This document shows positions 1 through 63,500 of a stretch of 64,000 nt of DNA, in pieces. Within the stretch, counting starts at the first letter, position 1. Every line of letters starts with the position of its first letter. The stretch is from Archilochus colubris. Lineage: Eukaryota > Chordata > Aves > Apodiformes > Trochilidae. The DNA lies in the NCBI GenBank assembly GCA_023079485.1, contig CM041083.1, positions 150,740,552 through 150,804,551 on the forward strand. Reading direction: 5' to 3'. The position numbers were made by a program, and so were the translations under genes. The notes under the pieces were generated by a model, which was not told the DNA's origin, made no database searches, and saw nothing but the letters and a program-made list of their open reading frames with translations.

Positions 1-1213
1 GATAGCAAGATGGAACAGAGTTGCTAAGTCAGTTGGTCTCAACACTTGCCCTGCCCAGAAGAAATTGGCTTGAGTATGTCATCTCCCCAAAATTTACAGT
101 AAGATACCTCTGACAAAACATAGATTTATTTTGCCATGATTTTGCCCCTTAGTCTATAAAGGGAAATAAGCACTAAGAAGACAAAGTTCATCTCATCCTA
201 TTGTTAAATTATCTAACTGTTAGGTGATATGGATACTTATTTTGGATCCTTTTGTCATTTGGGAAGGGTTTCCTAACTATTCTCCATTTCTACCTTACTT
301 TTTTTCTGCATTTCATTAGAAAAGTTTATATACTTTCTCCACATCCCTCTCCTCTCCTTACTCTCCAGCTAAAGAGACTTCTGAACTCTTGCTTCCTGGC
401 ACATGAAGTTTTCTTGCCCTATATTTTAGATGGTTAGTTACTTTTTATAAAAATGAACAGAATTTCTGCCAAAGCAAGATATTTACTTAATTGTTTAAAA
501 AAAAAAAAAAAAAGAAAAGAAAAAAAAGGGTCATATACTTGGGAAAGTTGCAGAAAGAGTGAGTTGGCTGCAGCAAGTAAAATGTGTAACACCTACTGTT
601 ATAAAATGGTTACCAATTACTCATTTTAAGCCAGTTATTTCACTGGATCCATTCTACCTACTGTACTGTAGTACATTTATCAACTTAATTCAGATAGTTA
701 GTCATTGGATTTCCCATTTCATTATTATATAGAGAGAGCAATTGTTTTTGTAATTATAGCAGTAAAATATGTTTGGACCCAATTTACCATTCCATAACTT
801 TAGGCAATGCAGTTAAGTGTGTAAATTTTGACTCTTTTTAGCTTTCCCAGTTGAGATGCTCCCTTTTTATTGGGTGGAAGAAGAAAAGGCACTTCCAGGA
901 AATTTAAGAACTTAAGTGGCCTCATGAAAGAGCTTGAATTAGGTAGGCTAGGTTTGGGTCATGCTTGTTAATACAGAGTTTCTGCTTCAATAGATTGAAT
1001 TCCAGAATGGTTTTGACAAATCTGGCACTGTTTTTCTTTAACAGACTTGCTTGAAATATAGTTTAAATTTTTCTGAAGTTTTTCTCAATCTGAGAACTTA
1101 AAACTTTTTTCTGTCACAGCTTTCCTGGTGTTAGTCAGAACTTTGTACACAGAAGATATGCATTGTATCCCTAAGGATTTATGCTATTGGTGTTTCTGTT
1201 CCTTTTTTTCTAG
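1..1213. other. AT-rich non-coding sequence
   Basis: No gene or recognisable repeat family is seen here apart from the A-rich tract at 497-527. Open frames are short and have low-complexity composition. The last 30 bases form a long pyrimidine run ending in TAG at 1211-1213, which acts as the acceptor of the candidate exon that follows. Confidence 0.6.
497..527 (+). repeat. A-rich simple repeat
   Basis: This is a run of A broken by two single G residues. No retrocopy body or target-site duplication is obvious around it, so it is treated as a simple repeat. Confidence 0.85.
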
Positions 1214-4633: not shown

Positions 4634-5133
4634 TCCAGTTCTGGGCCCCTTAGTTCAGGAAGGAGATTGAAGTCCTGGAGCGGGTCCAAAGGAGGGCAAC
4701 TAGGCTGGTGAAGGGATCCAGCACAAGTCCTGTGAGGTGAGGCTGAGGGAACTGGGGGTCTTCAGTCTGGAGGCGGCTCAGGGGAGATCTCATCACTCTC
4801 TACAACTCTCTGAAAGGAGGGGGTAGCTGGTGGGGGTTGGTCTCTTTTCCCAGGCAACTCCCAGTAAGACAAGAGGGCAAGGTCTTAAGTTGTGCCAGGG
4901 GAGGTTTAGGTTGGACATTAGAAAGAATTTCTTTACCGAGAGGGTGATCAGACATTGGAATGGGTTGCCCTGGGAAGTAGTGGATTCTCTGTCCCTGGAG
5001 ATATTTAAAAAAAGACTGGATGTGGCACTCAGTGCCATGGTCTGGTAACCATGGCCATAGTGGATCAAGGGTTGGACGTGTTGATCTCAGAGGTCCCTTC
5101 CAACCCATCCGATTCTATGATTCTATGATTCTA
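4634..5133 (+). mobile_element. CR1 LINE, 5'-truncated 3' end
   Basis: This is the terminal part of a CR1 non-LTR retrotransposon in sense orientation. It carries the C-terminal tail of the ORF2 polyprotein (endonuclease plus reverse transcriptase). A clean stretch at 4830-5045 reads G-V-G-L-F-S, then [13 protein letters not shown], then H-W-N-G-L-P. It ends in the short 3' UTR and the octamer tract ATTCTATG at 5112-5133. CR1 is usually 5'-truncated and makes no clear target duplication, as here. It is very similar to the copy at 60015-60530 and has almost the same truncation point. Confidence 0.95.
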
Positions 5134-7479
5134 ACACTGGAATGTCTGCTAGGCTCTGTCCTTAGGGAGCAGCCTGGGCATGACTAGGAGCACCTCAGCA
5201 AGCTGCCATCACATTCACCTGACCAGGATGTGCGACTGGGAAATCATTTGTAGATACAAATTTTCAAAGATACAAGCACTCTTCTGTCTTTCCATTAATT
5301 TTAGCAGGCTGGGGTTTAGTCCTGGGGGGACTCGTGGGACTTGTAGTCCCTTGTGGGACTACAGAATTTACTAGTGCAGAGGAAAAGGTACTCCAGAAGA
5401 TTATTTAGACAAGCCAAGTTCTGGACTGCCCATTGGAAGTACCTGCCAAACACCTTGAGTGATTAGGCTCTCAACTTAGGGGTTTACATTTTAGTGGGAC
5501 AAATCCATTTCAGAGTATAGGCATTAAAGCAGATGTAATTTAATTAATATGCCTTTAGAGACTTAGGTAGAGTAAATGATAATAATCCTTTATGTGAAAG
5601 GGAGGGAAACTGCTTTACCTAGCCTTGGTATGTTAAGACATATTGGTAAGTCAGGCAAGAAGATTAATTCTGATTCTCTTAATGCTCTTTTTATTTCTGT
5701 ACGTTTCAAGTCCTAAAAGATTATTTGCTTGTGCTTAAGTGGAAGAGAATGCAATCTAAAAACACATTATACTTATTATTGCTAGAATATGTTATAATTT
5801 TTGTTGAGCTGACATTGACAAATGGTTTTTTACCTTTTGTTCAATAGCTGATTTGAAAGAGCATTTCTGCACACTCTGTACTCCTGTATTGTAAGATACC
5901 TTCTGAAAACCTGTCCCACTTTCACACACCATTCAGCCACAGCATCATGGGCAATCATTTCACAAATAATAATAGAGGTATTTTTCTATTGTAAGATGAT
6001 TATTTTGTGCATTCCAGTGTAACATACCCTGAAATTTCACACGCTACTTCTGAAGCAGCCTTTTTTTCTTTCTCAAAAGTGCTATGGCAAATCCTGACCT
6101 GACGTTTTTTCAAACATGTAATGGCAATGTTGTTGTAAGTCATCTGGGGATGACAGTGATAGAGCACAGATTTCATGAAATGCCAAAACTTACTTCTGTT
6201 ATGAAACTTTCATTCACTTGACAGCGTTTAGGTGGATGGATAGTACAGTATCTTCTATTATTTCCTTACAGCCACAAACAGCTCTGAAGCTGAAAGTTTT
6301 ATGTTGCTGTTTACCAGACGTTTTAAGTCAAGATTTTGTAACACTAAAATTAAACTTCAAAACAGTAGAAAAATCACTACACTAGGTAAATGTGAAATCA
6401 ACAAGGATATATGAGAGAAAACTTATTTTTTTCTCATTTTTAATGATATTAAGATCAACTATGCTAGTATAATGTGTTATTTTCTATTTTCACACCAGTC
6501 AAAACTGGTTTGTTCCGGTTAGTTCTAATTTCAATGTGAATATTTGGATTACTGCTAATGATAGCTATAAAGTAAACATAAATTGGATTACACATCCATA
6601 TATTTGTTTACCTTTTTTTGTTGTTTTTGTTTTTCATGGTTCCTGCAGTATATTAATCTCCAGATTTAAAATTCAAGTGCACCAAGATAAAAGTTCATTT
6701 ATCTCTGTCCAAGAAGCAAAAATATAGAGCATCATAAATTAAATTCCAAAGTTGGAGGCAATTTATTTGAAGAGCCACCACTTAAAAATTAAAGACTTGA
6801 TGCCAAAGGTAAGTCCAGAATTTTCTTGCAAAACTGTACTTTGTTGGTAATGAATAGGTTTTGTCACTATTAACAGTCCATATAATTCAACTTCATGCTG
6901 TAAAAAAAATTTATCCAGTACAGATGTAATTTCATTTCTGTACCACAAAGACTTATTTTAAGATTTGTCAGAACAGCTACTTCTTTTAAAAAGAACAGTT
7001 GCTTATGTACATTTATTGAAGGATCCCAAGTCATATGAAAAGTTTTAAAACTTTGCCAACTTCTAAATAGAAAACACTTGTAGTCTTCGCAATTGACATT
7101 AATAATCAGAATTCTAGAATGTGCTTTTGTCTAATTTTATAGGTACTAAATGGTATTAAGTGGCATAGGTGCTAGATGGTATTAAAATCTTATTAAGATA
7201 TTGAAAAAATTTAAAATAGTAATGTAAAATAAATAGGGCTCTACAAGATGATAATAAAAGATGGGGGAAAGAAGTAGACGTGCAGTTCAGTAGCTTATTT
7301 AAATTTAAGCAGATTTTAAGTAAGATGAAAATTATGAAGAAAGATAGTTTGAGAAATATTCCAGGCAAAATAATGCTGTGGGTGTTATGAACTTAGTAAA
7401 AAGCTAAAAGACAGAACTGTCATTGTTCAGTCAGTGCAAGTTTATGGAGTTCAAATTTAAATAGTTTCTTTATGAGTCA
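5134..7479. other. AT-rich non-coding sequence
   Basis: No gene or recognised repeat apart from the small hairpin at 5342-5363. Mostly AT-rich single-copy-looking DNA. Confidence 0.55.
5342..5363. repeat. Short perfect inverted repeat (hairpin)
   Basis: TGTAGTCCC and its complement GGGACTACA are separated by the loop TTGT, giving a 9-bp stem. A related copy of GTGGGACTTG just upstream makes this a small patch of repeated GGGACT units. No function is implied. Confidence 0.7.
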
Positions 7480-13276: not shown

Positions 13277-14243
13277 GTGAGGTGCCATAGTGCTCCATCC
13301 TTGGCACAGTCCTCTTCAACATCTTTATCAATGGCTTGGACACAGGACTGGAAGGAATTTTAAGCAAGTTTGCAGATGATACAAACTTGGGAGGAATATC
13401 TGACTCCCCCAAGAGCAGGCAGGCCCTGCAGAGAGACCTCACCAGGCTATAGAGATGGGCAATCACCAACCACATGAAGTTTAACAAGGGCAAGTGCCAA
13501 ATTCTGCACCTAGAATGGGGCAACCCCAGTGGCACGTACAGACTGGGGAATGAGTGGCTGGAGAGCAGGGAGGCAGAGAGGGACCTGGGGGTCCTGGCTG
13601 ATGGCAAACTGAACATGAGCCAGCAGTGTGTCCTGGCAGCCAGAAGGGACAACTCTGTCATGGGGTGCATTAAGCACAGCATCACGAGCCCATCAAAGGA
13701 GGTGATTGTCCCATTCTGTACTGGTACTGCCTCACCTTGAGTAGTGTGTGCAGTTTTGGGCACCACGATACAGAAAAGACACCAAGCTTTTGAAGAATAT
13801 CCAAAGGAGAGCAACAAGGATGGTGAAGGGTCTGGAAAGTATGAGGAGTGGCTGAGGTCACTTGGATTATTCAGTCTGGAGAAAAGGAGGCTGAGGCGGG
13901 ACCTCATTGCAGTCTATGGCTTCCTCATGAGGGGAAGAGATGGGACTGTCACTGATTTCTTCACTCCTGTGGCCAAAGACAGGACTTGGGGAAATGGTAG
14001 GAAGTTGAATCAGGGAAGGCTTAGGTTAGATATTAGGAAAAGGTTTTTCAGCCAGTGTGGTTGAGCAATGGAACAAGGTCCCCAGGGAAGTGGCTACAGC
14101 ACCAAGGCTGCCTGAGCTCAACTGTTTGGATGATGCTCTCAGGTGCATGGTGTGATCCTGGGGGTGCCCTACATGGGGACAGGAGTTGGATTTGGTGATC
14201 CTGATGGGTCCCTTCCAACTCAGCATATTCTATGATTCTATGA
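13277..14243 (+). mobile_element. CR1 LINE, 5'-truncated, RT thumb to 3' end
   Basis: This is the longest CR1 piece in the window, in sense orientation. It begins at the palm motif ([13 protein letters not shown]), includes F-A-D-D-T at about 13366-13381, and runs through the C-terminal region of ORF2 to the 3' UTR and the ATTCTATG tail near 14227-14243. Two blocks are still open (13474-13740 and 13744-14064), separated by a stop and frame changes. Its 3' end differs from that of the 4.6-kb and 60-kb copies, so it is another subfamily. It overlaps the domain present in the 11800-12372 piece, so the two are separate insertions. Confidence 0.95.
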
Positions 14244-20052: not shown

Positions 20053-20173
20053 ATCATAGACTCACAGAAGGTTTTCCTTGGGAAGGGACCTTAAAGATCA
20101 TCTAGTTCCAACCTCCCTGCCGTGGCCAGGACACCTCCCACTTGACTATGTTGCTATGTTGCTCCAAGCCCAG
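20053..20173 (-). mobile_element. CR1 LINE 3' end fragment (antisense)
   Basis: Antisense copy of the last 120 bp or so of a CR1. It carries a decayed octamer tail (ATCATAGACTCACAGAA) and then the antisense of the conserved 3' region (GGGAAGGGACCTTAAAGATC, ACCTCCCTGCC, ACACCTCCCACT). It is truncated just before the small hairpin at 20174. Confidence 0.9.
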
Positions 20174-20207: not shown

Positions 20208-20213
20208 GTTGTT
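20208..20213 (+). repeat. Target-site duplication, left copy (GTTGTT)
   Basis: This 6-bp direct repeat is identical to 20809-20814 and directly abuts the TG and CA ends of the palindromic element. A 6-bp duplication with TG...CA ends is the signature of integrase of alpha- or betaretrovirus-like (ERVK-class) elements. Confidence 0.85.
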
Positions 20214-20463
20214 TGTAGTGAAATGAGGCAACTAAGTGCCACTAATTGCCAGGGAGTGGGCATGAGCTTGTGTTAAGCCCACCTGTGCCTGATTAAGGCA
20301 GGCCCTAACTGTGCATGAGCAGGATTAGGGGGCCAATAAAAGGTAAGGCCTGAACTCACAAGCTCAGCTCATGCTGGAACTCACAATCTTGGCATGCTTG
20401 GCTTTAACTGCTTCTCTCAGCAGTGCACTACCTTCATTGCTCCACTAGAGCTCATCGCTGTCA
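20214..20463 (+). repeat. Left LTR-like arm (plus orientation)
   Basis: About 250 bp running from TGTAGTG to GCTGTCA, as expected for an LTR bounded by TG and CA. CAATAAAAGG at 20334-20343 can serve as a TATA box, and its AATAAA as a polyadenylation signal; several retroviral LTRs combine the two. By this reading U3 is about 150 bp and R plus U5 about 100 bp. The family is not known to me. Confidence 0.7.
20336..20343 (+). promoter_or_regulatory. TATA-like box of the left LTR
   Basis: ATAAAAGG lies 122 bp from the outer end and points toward the tRNA-like centre. Its mirror copy in the right arm points the opposite way, so the two predicted promoters converge. Confidence 0.45.
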
Positions 20464-20467
20464 GGGT

Positions 20468-20555
20468 GAGGCTTGAGTGGCGCAGCTGGCTAGCACGCAG
20501 TAACAGACAAACCCGAGCAATTCTGAGGCCACGGGTTCGAGATTCAGAAGCCTCA
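20468..20555 (+). tRNA. tRNA-like sequence between inverted LTRs (abnormal)
   Basis: A perfect 7-bp acceptor stem is formed by GAGGCTT at 20468-20474 and AAGCCTC at 20548-20554, followed by a discriminator A. An A box matching the Pol III consensus starts at 20478 (TGGCGCAGCTGG), and a B-box-like GGTTCGAGATT at 20534-20544 has one mismatch. An anticodon-like stem pairs CAGTA with TTCTG (4 of 5). From memory, the D-arm block resembles tRNA-Ile(UAU)-type tRNAs. Faults: three extra bases after the acceptor, an 18-nt anticodon loop with no clear anticodon, and a poor T stem. It is unlikely to be a working tRNA. It may be a copied primer tRNA or pre-tRNA, or a tRNA-derived sequence. Confidence 0.5.
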
Positions 20556-20558
20556 CTC
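20544..20558 (-). other. Primer-binding-site position of the right LTR
   Basis: Read on the minus strand, the right LTR ends in GCTGTCA. It is followed directly by GAGT (GGGT in the left arm; TGGT would be expected for CCA plus the discriminator) and then GAGGCTT, the complement of the tRNA-like 3' acceptor strand. This is where a retroviral primer-binding site lies. The first three bases differ from the canonical TGG. Confidence 0.5.
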
Positions 20559-20808
20559 TGACAGCAATGAGCTCTAGTGGAGCAATGAAGGTAGTGCACT
20601 GCTGAGAGAAGCAGTTAAAGCCAAGCATGCCAAGATTGTGAGTTCCAGCATGAGCTGAGCTTGTGAGTTCAGGCCTTACCTTTTATTGGCCCCCTAATCC
20701 TGCTCATGCACAGTTAGGGCCTGCCTTAATCAGGCACAGGTGGGCTTAACACAAGCTCATGCCCACTCCCTGGCAATTAGTGGCACTTAGTTGCCTCATT
20801 TCACTACA
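20559..20808 (-). repeat. Right LTR-like arm (minus orientation)
   Basis: Inverted copy of the 250-bp LTR-like arm, with TG...CA ends on the minus strand and the mirror TATA-like box at 20679-20686. It is probably the LTR from which reverse transcription read into the tRNA, since the tRNA 3' end abuts its U5 end. Confidence 0.7.
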
Positions 20809-20814
20809 GTTGTT
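20809..20814 (+). repeat. Target-site duplication, right copy (GTTGTT)
   Basis: Matches 20208-20213 exactly and directly follows the terminal CA of the palindromic element. Confidence 0.85.
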
Positions 20815-33224: not shown

Positions 33225-33660
33225 CTGGGTCCAGAGGAGGGCAATGAATATGATCAGAATTTTGGAAGACCTCTCCTATGAATAAGAGCTGAGGCTGTTC
33301 AGCCTGAAGAAGAGAAGGCTCTGGGAAGACATTTCAGTATATGAAGGAGGCTTATAAGACACGTAGAGAAACACCTTTTACCAAGGCCTGTAATGAGAGC
33401 ACAATGGGAAATGGTTTTACACTGAAAGAGGGTAGGTTTAGATTGGATACAAGAAAGAAAATTTTAACAAAGAAGGTAATAACACAGGTTGCCCAGAGAA
33501 GTTGTGAATACTTCCTCTCTGAAAGTGTTCAAAGACAGGTTTGATGGAACTTTGAGTAACCTGGTCTAATGGGAGCTGTCCTTGCACAAGGCAGGGGGGG
33601 TTGGAGCTAGACGATCTTTAATGTCCCTTCTGACCCCAGAAATTGGTTCTGTGATTCCAT
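33225..33660 (+). mobile_element. CR1 LINE 3' end (sense)
   Basis: Sense CR1 from the GGGTCCAGAGGAGGGCAA region through the ORF2 C-terminal tail (open at 33341-33544; F-R-L-D-T-R-K-K-I-L-T-K-K-V) to the 3' UTR (GTTGGAGCTAGACGATCTTT) and a decayed tail (GTTCTGTGATTCCAT). It is moderately old. Confidence 0.93.
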
Positions 33661-46562: not shown

Positions 46563-48150
46563 TTCCTCCTCTGAGGGTATCGTGATCTGGAGTTCAGTTA
46601 CACATATACTCAATTCAAAGAGGAAAAAAATAATTAATTGCTGTTATTCTTGCTTTTTCCATAATTATAATGATTGGATTTTACCAGTAAAACAAACAAT
46701 CTGATCAAGACAACATTTGTTACCTGATGAATCAAGAAGCACAGTAGCTAGCAAAGGATATTAATCACAAATATCTGTACTGAAAGACAGTCATTGTCCT
46801 TGTTTTTCTTTTCAGATCCTTTCTTGCACATACCCTTACAGTATATTTCTAGCACAGATTTCGTTGCCATTTCTTCAACCTCAGTTTTACTAGATGCATT
46901 ATTCATGACTGGAAAAAAATAGACTCAGAGGATAAATAAGGAATTTTCTGGAGTGCAACAGAAGGTCCATTGGAGAGAATCGAGAAAATTTAAGCTGCAG
47001 GCAGAGGCAATAGCCTTGGTCCCTACCAATTTAGCAGCATATGCCATCCAATAAATTCTATTTAAACTCAATCCAGACTTAATAAAAAAGGTAAACAGAC
47101 ATTTTAATGGAGATCTGCAATGATTAAACATTAAAGGACTGATTATTTTTGTGTTTATAACAGGAATTATATTTCTTATTTTATTACAGTAAGTTAAACA
47201 AATAGGAGACAAAGACATTGCTTCCAACAGCTATTGTCCTATGTCTGGAAAGAATCAGCGTGTCATTAAGGTAATTACTGTTCTCATTTGGGATCCTGAT
47301 AAGTTCTTAAATAGTCTGTCATTAAGATATACACAGCACATCTCCTTAATAAGATCTCTTGATTTGATGAAGCCCTTATTAATGCCATGGAAGATCCCAG
47401 GACACCTCCATTTTTAGTGAGAGTTCTGTTCAAGATTACTCTGGTGTCATTCACACTGCTTTTGGTATAATCAAACTTGAATGTGGAGTCCTGTTCTTGA
47501 ATTTTCAAGACAGTTTAGCAGTAGTGTGGATGTACTGAAGTTGTATATGTCCCTTTGCAAACTCAGCTGCTAGCATCAAAATCATGTATTTTTTTTGGTG
47601 TTATTTTTAAGAACAAGTAGAAATTCTAATGATTATGATTATCCAAGAAGGAGAAATTTTATCCAGTGTTTTCACAGTAAAAGCATGCCAAACTTTAACA
47701 AACTCTCTTCTGAAATGACTGATTTCCAACATTTATACACTTTTGTTCCTCCTGTTCTTCTGTTATACAATGGATGCACTGCACAGATGGTTTGTAATGA
47801 GACGGATAAAATACACTAATACTCATTCATCAGCCTGGAGTTTGGATTAAGAACAGGCAGATACCTCCTTTGCTGTCTGGTGGGAGAAACAAAATCCATC
47901 CATTCATTAATCCCAGTATCCCAGATACAGAGCTACTACCTCCAATTAAAAACGGTTGCTTGATTTTCAGGTAGGAGGAAAAAAGAAAAGCTTGGATGGG
48001 TTAATGCTTGCTATTTTACAGGTGTTAAAAAGAGAAGGACCCCTCTGACCCACTGCCACAGCTGTGATCCACAGAAACACAGAACAGGCTGAAGCTGTCG
48101 GCTGACAGAGGCCGTGACTGCTGCTCTTTCCTGAAAATCAGACTCCTAGT

Positions 48151-48252
48151 CATAGAATCATAGAATCATAGAATCCTTGGGGTTGGAAGGGACCTCGAAA
48201 GATCATCTAGTCCAACCCCCCCTGTCAGAGCAGGGCCACCTAGAGCAACGCA
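48151..48252 (-). mobile_element. Very short CR1 LINE 3' end (antisense)
   Basis: Starts with a clean antisense octamer tail (three CATAGAAT units) followed by about 75 bp of the antisense 3' UTR (TTGGAAGGGACCTCGAAAG, ATCATCTAGTCCAACCCCCC). The clean tail suggests a fairly young insertion, with extreme 5' truncation. Confidence 0.93.
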
Positions 48253-60014: not shown

Positions 60015-60530
60015 ATTGTGTCCAGTTCTGGGCCCCTCAGTTCAGGAAGGATATCGAGGTCCTGGAGCAGGTCCAAAGGAGGGCAACCAGGCTGGTGAAG
60101 GGACTCGAGCACAGACCCTATGAGGAGAGGCTGAGGGAGCTGGGGCTGTTCAGCCTGGAGAAGAGGAGGCTCAGGGGAGACCTCATCACTCTCTACAACT
60201 CCCTGAAAGGAGGTTGGAGCCAGGGGGGGGTTGGGCTCTTTTCCCAGATGACTTTCAACAAGACAAGAGGGCAGGGTCTTAAGTTGTGCCAGGGGAGGTT
60301 TAGGTTGGATATTAGAAAGAATTTCTTTACGGAGAGGGTGATGAGGCATTGGAATGGGCTGCCCAGGGAAGTAGTGGATTCTCCATCCCTGGAGATATTT
60401 AAAAAGAGACTGGATGTGGCACTCAGTGCCATGGTCTGGTAACTGCAGCGGTAGTGGATCAAGGGTTGGACTCGATGATCTCTGAGGTCCCTTCCAACCC
60501 AGCCAATTCTATGATTCTATGATTCTATGA
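60015..60530 (+). mobile_element. CR1 LINE, young 5'-truncated 3' end
   Basis: Sense CR1 from ATTGTGTCCAGTTCTGGGCC to an intact octamer tail (three ATTCTATG units at 60507-60530). The ORF2 C-terminal frame is open from 60095 to 60439 and carries [14 protein letters not shown], then [14 protein letters not shown], then H-W-N-G-L-P. It is the least decayed CR1 in the window and of the same subfamily as 4634-5133. Confidence 0.97.
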
Positions 60531-63500
60531 CAATGCAGCCTTGAGATGTGTGAACATGCTGATTTAGCCCACAGCCCTGATACCTCTGGGTCTCACTGCA
60601 GACCCTGTTACTCCAGAGACGTTTATATGTTGAGCCCTTGGCCACAGATTCTGGTCCTTTTGATCTTTTTTTTCCCCCCTTCCTTAGCTAATTCAAAATG
60701 AGGAGAGTGCCTCTTCTCTTTTATGAACTTTCCTGTTATGTGAATACCTGATCCATACTCCGTATAGAATTTCTTAAACAAGAAGAATTGATTGGGGTTT
60801 TTTGTTGGTGATTATTGCTGGATTATTAATTACCTTTAATTACCTTGTACCTCCAAGATTAAAATGCGTTCTAAAACTTGACACTTCAACCTTATTATCT
60901 TACAACAAGAGTATGGCAGTTTCTAACAATACTATTTATCAAAGGTAAACTGCTTATTAAGACCTTCTAATTATTAAGGTACTGTAATCAATCTTCAGTA
61001 AAATTCCATTAGAGATATAAGCCCTTGAGAAAACTGCTTGTGACTCTTATGAACTTGACCAGTTCTGAAATGTAAAAGAAACCTCTTTTCTCCCACCATG
61101 AGTTACCTATATTCAAATTTGCTAACTTGACAGTTTAGAAAGAAAGGACTTAGGTTGGTTGTTGATATGCCCCTGGGATGTTTTAATCATCTTGTACATG
61201 CTGACGTTCTTATTCTTCATTTTTTTAAAACATTTTTATTCCACAAGCAGATAATTTGATGACAGGGAGCATAATTCATAAATCTATTAGAGGACACAAT
61301 CTTTTCCCCAATGTCTTTATTGTCTAAATAGTTTAGAAATACTATCCTCCCTCTAATTTGCCTCTGTACTCTCTCACCGGGGTGTCATCCTCCTCATGCC
61401 CCATATTGTGCTCCTGTTTCCAGGTGAATTTTGTATTTTTTAGGTCATCTTCATATTCTGTGTAAGCCTTGATCTCACCACCATTTTGAAATTTTCAAGT
61501 CATTGTTCATTTTGGCCATGTCTATGTTGTTATGCTGGAAAGGCTTTCCATCTCCATGTGTGTCCTTGTGTTGCTACTTCTGTGCTGGGGCACAGCCTGG
61601 GCTTGTTCCCTCCTTACCCTCAGAGTAGGGTGACCAGCCTCCAGGGATGCTTGGGGCCCCCCTGGCTGTGGGATGCAGGTGTCTCCACCCTCCCCATGGC
61701 ATAGACGTGGACTTGATCTCTTATCTCACCTCCTTTCTTCTTTTCCCTTGAGCTAGGCCAGGGCATTGCTCACCTCAAGACACACAAAGAAAGCCAAATA
61801 TTGCTGGCATTGAACAGGGACACCACCTTTGAATGAGTTTCAAGCTGAATGAAAGGCTGCACTTTATGAACTTGCTCTGCTTCACCTAGTTGGCTGTCTC
61901 CAGGCCATATTGGAGCCCATGACAGCAGTGATACACAAAGGTGAAAAGACAGCCCACTGGGCTTCTTTGTTGGTGTATTATTGCTTGTCTGTGTCACAGC
62001 ATGACAAGGGAAGCTCATTTTGTAGTTTTTCCTATGTGAAAAGAAAGTAGCAGACTTTTTGGTCTTAAAAATTTCCACATGGGAGAAAGAAGATGAGTGG
62101 ACATACCCTGCCCTGCTTACAGAAGATGGAGTAAAGCAGAATTATTCCAAACAAAGCATTTATTCCAAACAAAACGAAAAGTTCTTTTATCCTACTTGAA
62201 TTGTGACCTTCAGAATCACAGCTACTCTTTAAAGATTCATCCAGCATGGTGCCGAGTCATTCAACACTAAGCTAAAATGCTTGCTTTCAATTTTTGCTGG
62301 TTTTCTCCCATTATCTAAATCAAGCTGTATTTCTCTCCCTTTAAACCAGTATTCAGCCAGTGTTCTCATCTACACCTGCTAGCATTTACCAAAGTATTCT
62401 GCATTTCTCCATCTCATCAACTTCATACCTTTCTACACCTTAAGCAGAATTTTTTTCCCCTTCATATATGTCTCCTAATATTCTGACTCAATTTATTCCT
62501 TATAATTTACCCAACAAATCAGCGTGTATTTATTCACCCCAAACCAACTGCAATAGCTTTCTGCAATTTTTGGTAGATAATTTTCTGCATTGCTAAGAAA
62601 ATAAATGCTTTGGATAAAGTTGAATTTAAAAGGATACAAAGGCATATTACTGACTCATTGCAGTTTTTACAGCAATTTAAACATGAAAATTATCTTTTTT
62701 TTTTTTTTTAATGGTTCCTTTAATATGGTTTTGCTGAATGAGCTTTCTGCTCAGAGAAGAGACAGAAAATTGAAAGAATGCATTTTCTAATTCTTCACTG
62801 TAAAAACTTGTTTTTTTCAGTTGACTTAAGGTACATCATGATTTTATATAAGAACATAGTTTTTAAAAGTTACACATAAACATCACAGAAATCTGTTAAA
62901 GAAAACCATGGTCAACATTAGAAGAGACTGATGACAACGAGATTTAAAAAAAGGAATTTAAGCTTTCTCTTATGGATGCATTTGGCCTGTTGAACCCTAG
63001 GCATTTGAAAAAAGGCCATAGTTCACTTTTTTCAGAGTCCTCATGGAAAGTAAGTATTCTGAAAAGAATAATGTAATTTTGGGATGCGAAAGATTTTTTA
63101 TGTTTTTGTGTATTTCTGAAAGCATAAGATAATTTCCACTATAGAACTGAGCTTACCTTACTAGTGTATATTTTCTACATATTTTCTGTACATTTTATTT
63201 GAGTTAGATTTTTTAAAGTAGAAGATTGTTTTTGTAGGAGAATAGGTTTTATTTGAAGAAGTTACTTTAACAATCTAAAGAAGACAGGTGTATATTACAT
63301 TCAACGCAAGAATTTCCATTCTGAAATAATCAAAAATGCTTTGAGTTTATTACACATTTTAAAACATAATTTATACCTTCCACAGTATAGAATTGTATTT
63401 TAGTTTAAGACGGACAGTTAAAGCCAGCAACATTATTTTTCAGGTTTTGCTAAGTAAGATCCTGCAGCATTGTATACTAATATCTGCTGTATTTCTGCAG

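Follow-up and report, generated by a model that had tools for sequence, protein, structure and literature searches.

Polintons (Mavericks) combine long terminal inverted repeats, 6-bp target-site duplications and a retrovirus-like integrase. Solo long terminal repeats (LTRs), terminal-repeat retrotransposons in miniature (TRIMs) and Cassandra, which carries 5S RNA, a gene of RNA polymerase III (Pol III), in its LTRs, use the integrase of LTR retroelements and have TG...CA ends. Template switching in virus-like particles can join a cellular RNA to an LTR, and the product is integrated as an LTR-mediated retrocopy, in the account of Tan et al. 2016 given by PMC5408686. In birds, short interspersed elements (SINEs) are considered largely inactive by one source, which describes TguSINE1 of passerines as a tRNA-Ile head with a CR1 tail (PMC5729268), and abundant LTR-type insertions with 5-bp duplications are described for TguLTR5d and hitchcock-related LTRs (PMC4540587). 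Here we analyzed a 64,000-nucleotide stretch of the Archilochus colubris genome (contig CM041083.1, positions 150,740,552 to 150,804,551; the window), which contains a 595-bp palindromic element at positions 20214-20808. With a probability of about 0.7, it belongs to a non-autonomous mobile family that would parasitize a betaretrovirus-like endogenous retrovirus (ERV) and would consist of two intron-containing tRNA-Ile(UAU)-type units between inverted copies of the U3 region of the LTR.

The element has two arms of 261 nt each (20214-20474 and 20548-20808), which pair in inverted orientation at 259 of 261 positions without gaps, the only mismatches lying at arm positions 243 and 252. Its outer termini are TGTAGT...ACTACA. 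A previous sequence-only reading had described the palindrome, the TG...CA ends and GTTGTT on both sides, all of which the sequence bears out. It had also placed an 88-nt core between the arms and complementarity running unbroken through a CCA position; the spacer measures 73 nt, and the sequence contains no CCA. R, U5 and a primer-binding site (PBS) are likewise absent from the element, which reads in the order U3, reversed tRNA2, leader, tRNA1, linker, tRNA2, inverted U3 (Table 1).

The 1.10-Gb genome that is the home of the window (contig C1, 200 Mb) was searched with the element, and 40 of 3,102 first-look candidates were scored. The result was 80 matches distributed over 40 separate places, which align along almost the entire element and so exclude a chance similarity; as expected of a palindrome, each place matched on both strands. 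A second search with another copy as query (40 scored among 3,903 candidates) brought 12 new places, 11 with near-full-length matches. At least 51 near-full-length copies are present among those scored out of thousands of candidates. In the first-search copies, the 6-bp duplication was perfect and flush in 31 of 40, matched at 5/6 positions in seven and was missing in two. Because of the many copies and their target duplications, the window element can be regarded as a member of a mobile family; the same copies contradict a one-off accident, which the sequence-only reading had offered as an alternative to such a family, and agree with the retroviral-type ends and 6-bp duplication it had proposed. 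Contig C32 (32.4 Mb, 2.9% of the genome), which may be the W chromosome in view of the ERV richness of the latter, holds 16 of the 40 scored tRNA-U3 places. Apparent duplicate places occur on C32 (1213114/1249062), and loci L066 and L067 resemble one locus seen twice. At locus L037 (G000:C10:8364437-8368009, around 1500-2073), the adjoining flanks are themselves inverted repeats, which suggests an assembly fold-back or a local inversion; L037 was left out of the arm counts as a probable assembly fold-back.

By comparison with LTRs of the same genome, the U3 of a betaretrovirus-like ERV makes up the outer ~158 bp of each arm. The first 140 nt of the window arm are 0.78-0.83 identical to the U3 of seven solo LTRs, and these are 0.86-0.91 identical to the right U3 of locus L055 (the U3 identity of L104 was not used because the alignment started beyond U3). 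The seven inspected solo LTRs are 320-323 bp long and are flanked by duplications matching at 6/6 positions in two cases, 5/6 in three and 4/6 in one, with none in the seventh. When the R-U5-leader region of L055 was used as query (40 scored among 901 candidates), 28 of the 40 matches stopped near the LTR end and were taken as solo LTRs, with the chimera L062 and L081 among them, and the other 12, L055 included, continued beyond it. L081 is possibly a separate solo LTR beside an element. A 2.5-kb piece located 3.5-6 kb from the LTR of one longer copy contains reverse transcriptase, integrase zinc and integrase core domains and is a candidate part of the same provirus. The nearest solved integrases are 5cz2, 3jca and 7usf, which we take to be those of mouse mammary tumour virus and to fit a 6-bp duplication. 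In 19 relatives of the element, the LTR match stops at position 134-165 of ~320, and AATAAA is present in 69 of 78 arms. The arms had been read as LTRs; their relation to real ERV LTRs holds, but they consist of U3 and a stretch derived from a tRNA. L034 (~538-736, minus strand; a 5/6 duplication by eye) and L039 (659-964) contain LTR-like sequences that belong to a more distant family, with a U3 resembling the arms and a different R-U5.

The remainder of the arms and the core are tRNA-related. A tRNA-Ile(UAU) query matched two genes in this genome, L044 (94%) and L045 (93%); the assignment to Ile(UAU) rests on this 93-94% identity to a human gene. Rfam classified both genes as tRNA with ~55 bits against a cut-off of 29, and among the eight loci submitted the units in L060, L068 and L093 stayed below the cut-off. 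ARAGORN, run with introns allowed on 16 loci, detected L044 and L045 but assigned them to Ala, and it gave three doubtful units at other places; neither program found a tRNA in the window or its core. Positions 152-238 of the window arm match L045 with 72.5% identity over 91 bp (E 6e-8). Of 39 cores, 37 fitted the unspliced L045 better than its spliced form (mean scores, 51.8 vs. 34.6), and the same was true of the tRNA2 of the inner right arm (63.5 vs. 42.5; 37 of 39). The weakest real core, with 30, lies within the range of shuffled cores (best of 195, 33), and the lowest score of a right-arm tRNA2 was 29, compared to 34 for the best shuffle; on average, the match is far above the shuffles. 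The scores of 17 relatives against the unspliced gene were far higher, with means of 126 for tRNA1 and 111 for tRNA2, and the unspliced form was better in 17 of 17 for each. These alignments support the interpretation of core and inner arm as unspliced, intron-containing tRNA-Ile(UAU)-type units without CCA.

Candidate signals for Pol III transcription are present to different degrees. An A box was found in 35 and a B box in 23 of the 39 window-type copies; both boxes are present in 15 of 19 relatives. In 36 of the 39 window-type copies, the earliest T-run following the core is TTTT, at a distance of 127-129 nt from the right end in all 36. The leader, which separates the U3 piece from tRNA1 in the relatives, ranges from 1 to 29 nt in 16 loci and amounts to 1-11 nt in 13 of them, so that tRNA1 is preceded by roughly the stretch at which Pol III would start.

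These relatives, in which the left side varies, came from 45 further loci (L046, L048, L051-L055 and L058-L095). L048 and L058 had no readable right end, and L061, L062, L063, L066, L067 and L069 were not fully parsed. In one parsed set, 18 of 25 loci have a pair of tRNA units in the same direction, and the right end is mostly an inverted U3. Duplications of at least 5/6 were present in 19 of 25 loci with both ends readable (chance 0.005 each). The left U3 pieces, counted from the U3 terminus, measure ~15, 35-46, 63-80, 96, 116-129 or at least 150 nt, lengths that vary by some nucleotides with the alignment, and the longest extend into a reversed tRNA2. In L055 the left side consists of an ERV 5′ LTR and ~1.2 kb of leader and gag-like sequence joined to tRNA1, with a 5/6 duplication; the gag-like label is our own reading, and Pfam gave no match for this stretch. 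In L052, LTR positions 160-293, beginning near the presumed R start, are joined to tRNA1. L086-L089 lack a left U3 and begin one base beyond the initial base of the tRNA 3′ exon, the splice site being located by tRNA numbering, flush with duplications of 6/6, 6/6, 5/6 and 6/6; a fifth such locus, L085, has 3/6. L090 starts at about base 3 of tRNA1 (duplication 6/6 by eye), and no left U3 was seen by eye in L091-L095. A constant tRNA-tRNA-inverted U3 block attached to varying partners close to a start site, a splice site or the tRNA1 5′ end is what would be expected if reverse transcriptase finished a precursor tRNA and then switched template. The single-tRNA forms L059 and L070 join at CTCACC, a sequence common to the tRNA T-arm and the inverted U3, which suggests that they reflect the origin of the founder. 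Two further arrangements were observed: L062 (831-1103) joins tRNA2 to the sense R-U5 of an ERV LTR and is another kind of tRNA/LTR chimera, and L042 (2543-2847) is an older single-arm relative with a U3-type arm, a tRNA core, ~19 nt of a second arm and then TTTT.

The following route would account for these structures. The internal promoter of tRNA1 would drive synthesis of an RNA that resembles a precursor tRNA and terminates at TTTT within the inverted U3; the 3′ tail of this RNA would thus be complementary to U3 and might prime there. In ERV particles, reverse transcriptase would join the RNA copy to U3, a join present in the copies, and yield a strand U3-tRNA2′-tRNA1′ that would end at the former RNA 5′ end. 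The 3′ end of this strand would then take a second template, either the U3 or linker of its own or another molecule, which would be the fold-back behind window-type products, or ERV RNA, as the products L055 and L052 suggest. The leader of the window subfamily is complementary to its linker, and fold-back would therefore copy tRNA2 and U3 and give the 261-bp arms. The inverted U3 copies would present the end recognized by the ERV integrase, which presumably inserted the DNA with the 6-bp duplications observed. After insertion, arm-to-arm conversion could homogenize the arms further. That such elements form a new mobile class, a retrovirus-dependent SINE whose Pol III pre-tRNA RNA primes directly on retroviral RNA by means of a 3′ tail complementary to the helper U3, captures this end, folds back to make a second one and integrates, is a tentative proposal to which we give slightly less than even odds.

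Several observations weigh against this route. Human tRNAs aligned to the cores gave Ile(UAU) as best match in 15 of 27 and another tRNA in 12 of 27. Both Pol III boxes are present in only 21 of 39 window-type copies, so that a tRNA region with A and B boxes, as in SINEs, is found in about half of the window type only. No clear target duplication was seen in L052, L085 or, by eye, L091-L095. By eye, pairing to the leader is not obvious for the junctions at U3 71 and 96, and the common junctions (near 40-46; 96) could be inherited. Two arm types that are distinguished by indels occur together in L027, L039 and L042; for copies with such unlike arms, switching between molecules must be assumed. 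In 22 relatives, the left U3 had its own right U3 as best match, including ties, in just 10 (mean difference 0.070 to its own and 0.150 to other copies), and intramolecular copying is therefore not general; in L055, the identity between the U3s is no higher than 91%. Core and U3 distances correlate weakly (r = 0.22, P = 0.0035), and U3 was therefore not acquired wholly independently of lineage; core distances correlate similarly with those of the right-arm tRNA2 (r = 0.19, P = 0.03) and not clearly with those of the left-arm tRNA2 (r = 0.12, P = 0.10). Because of the 10 of 22 own-U3 matches and the r of 0.22, we propose fold-back or template switching between molecules rather than strict self-copying.

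Other origins have to be considered. The sequence-only reading had assumed that the mature primer tRNA of the ERV was copied to its end, that the acceptor stem snapped back and primed a second LTR, and that integrase joined the U3 ends to the host. Reverse transcription with fold-back remains the best general geometry, and this model covers the inverted U3 ends, the tRNA core and the 6-bp duplications. However, the 39-copy alignment that supports the tRNA nature of the core ties it to an intron-containing gene, and since the units are unspliced and lack CCA, a mature primer is not their source. In addition, the arms have no R, U5 or PBS, one core lineage is common to the copies, some copies have unlike arms, and the PBS of L055 (TGGTGAAGACTGC), two bases past the U5 end, is complementary to tRNA-Ile(UAU) at its first bases only; read-through of a primer tRNA is highly improbable. 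A DNA transposon with terminal inverted repeats, or a foldback element, that only resembles LTRs would have long inverted repeats and a duplication of constant size and might have inherited the unlike arms of some copies. This origin is very remote, as an LTR family that comprises solo LTRs and longer ERV copies has a U3 matching the outer 158 bp, which contradicts a foldback transposon without LTR relatives, and as there are chimeras with ERV R-U5 and gag-like DNA and ends at the tRNA splice site. The variable left ends might also be secondary, all copies having begun as full window-type palindromes that lost part of one arm. Palindromes presumably delete easily, some junctions lie at short GGTGAG-like matches, and L046 and L048 appear internally rearranged. 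Nevertheless, tRNA1 of the variable-end class is nearer to the gene (mean 126 in 17 loci) than the window-type cores (52 in 39 copies), and this class therefore does not descend from the window type; the junction on the tRNA side is also nearly constant, and the splice-site ends of L086-L089 are flush with their duplications. We regard secondary deletion as improbable.

It is also unlikely that the near-identity of the arms comes solely from copying at insertion, all near-identical copies being young and gene conversion playing no part. The two arms are sister pairs in 26 of 39 copies by one tree method and in 24 of 39 by another, and the outer 240 nt are identical between arms in eight copies. 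The arms of the 15 near-identical copies differ at 21 of 135 sites within arm positions 241-249, compared to 5 of 450 at 211-240, and this edge near the predicted RNA 5′ end favours copying at birth. On the other hand, the same copies have mismatches at 4 of 90 duplication sites, too many for an outer-arm divergence of 0.44% (P = 0.0007), a test based on four events only; in the 23 copies with divergent arms, 3 of 138 duplication sites are mismatched vs. an arm divergence of 7.9% (P = 0.004), and the duplication mismatches of the two groups do not differ significantly (P = 0.44; L033 and L037 were left out). From this relation of duplication mismatches to arm divergence, some arms were probably homogenized after insertion by arm-to-arm conversion, and some copies were probably born with unlike arms. 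Near-identical arms are no proof of a fresh insertion, since such copies also have mutated target duplications, and the view of these copies as simply young was dropped. Fixed left and right arm lineages were likewise rejected, as alleles occur in both orientations. The avian substitution rate is near 2e-9 per year, and the 7 mismatches at 228 duplication sites indicate an age of roughly 8 million years, with a wide error.

The features of the window copy are listed in Table 1; its U3 boundary was placed via comparison with L075. CR1-like dispersed repeats lie at window positions 4634-5138, 13749-13916, 20053-20155, 33286-33597, 48148-48219 and 60021-60531, and some of these fragments end in tails of (ATTCTATG)n, which we assume to be the CR1 motif.

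Table 1. Coordinates of the parts of the element and its flanks in the window.
Feature	Position	Strand	Basis
Left target-site duplication copy GTTGTT, 6 bp	20208..20213	.	Sequence
Left U3, arm positions 1-158, begins TGTAGT	20214..20371	+	Solo-LTR identity; LTR match mapped in relatives
TATA-like U3 motif AATAAAAG (presumed function)	20335..20342	+	Complement contains right-arm TTTT
tRNA2, tRNA-Ile(UAU)-type, reverse-complemented, left arm	20372..20451	-	Match to gene L045
tRNA1 leader	20452..20470	+	Contains arm positions 241-249, the biggest arm difference in near-identical copies
Core tRNA1, putative tRNA-Ile(UAU)-type with intron-derived bases, without CCA	20471..20545	+	Unspliced-gene alignment
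A-box-like TGGCGCAGCTGG, candidate Pol III promoter (presumed consensus)	20478..20489	+	Pattern match
B-box-like GGTTCGAGAT	20534..20543	+	By eye; strict pattern unmet in window copy
tRNA1-tRNA2 linker	20546..20570	+	Mostly complementary to leader
tRNA2, tRNA-Ile(UAU)-type, sense, right arm	20571..20650	+	39-copy alignment to unspliced gene
Right inverted U3, terminates ACTACA	20651..20808	-	LTR comparison
TTTT, first T-run past core, candidate Pol III terminator	20681..20684	+	Position fixed across copies
Right target-site duplication copy GTTGTT, 6 bp	20809..20814	.	Sequence

In a limited search of open-licence literature, no description of such a family was recognized, and should the family be listed by a different name in a repeat database, its structure and mechanism may still be undescribed. 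TguLTR5d was considered and dropped, since its 5-bp duplications, as described, set it apart from a family with 6-bp duplications. With Polintons and foldback transposons the family shares long terminal inverted repeats, but its termini are TGTAGT...ACTACA and its ends are an ERV U3, homologous to LTRs, whereas a foldback transposon has no relation to LTR retroelements. With non-autonomous LTR elements it shares TG...CA ends and a duplication of fixed length; those elements, however, have direct LTRs composed of U3, R and U5 with a PBS and a polypurine tract, whereas the family has only U3, in inverted orientation. As in LTR-mediated retrocopies, a copy of a cellular RNA is joined to an LTR and flanked by an LTR-type duplication (L055, L086-L089 and others). 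Those retrocopies, as far as they are described in the source cited above, are pieces of mRNA inside an LTR element, between the direct LTRs of one parent, whereas here a tRNA precursor is present in many copies and the U3s are inverted or one side is without U3. The ends of the family seem to register processing sites of pre-tRNA (start and splice site) in DNA and would be a natural record of cellular RNAs entering retroviral particles and of how reverse transcriptase stops. For a retroviral integrase, a terminal TG/CA derived from the tRNA seems to be sufficient as second end, as in L086-L089.

The family also resembles tRNA-derived SINEs, with which it shares a tRNA body, Pol III boxes, short length, lack of coding capacity, high copy number and the need for a helper. 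Unlike SINEs, it has no 3′ tail shared with a long interspersed element (LINE), its right end being an inverted U3 that terminates in ACTACA; it also has two inverted U3 ends and 6-bp duplications, and its putative helper is an LTR retrovirus and not CR1. If the proposal of a retrovirus-dependent SINE is true, such an element would itself act as primer and template and supply the two integration ends, while having no R, U5, PBS or gene. The family has a SINE-like body and LTR-element-like ends, and neither definition fits it in full. SINEs are usually regarded as LINE parasites, and a tRNA family riding on a retrovirus would add a second route to SINE-like elements.
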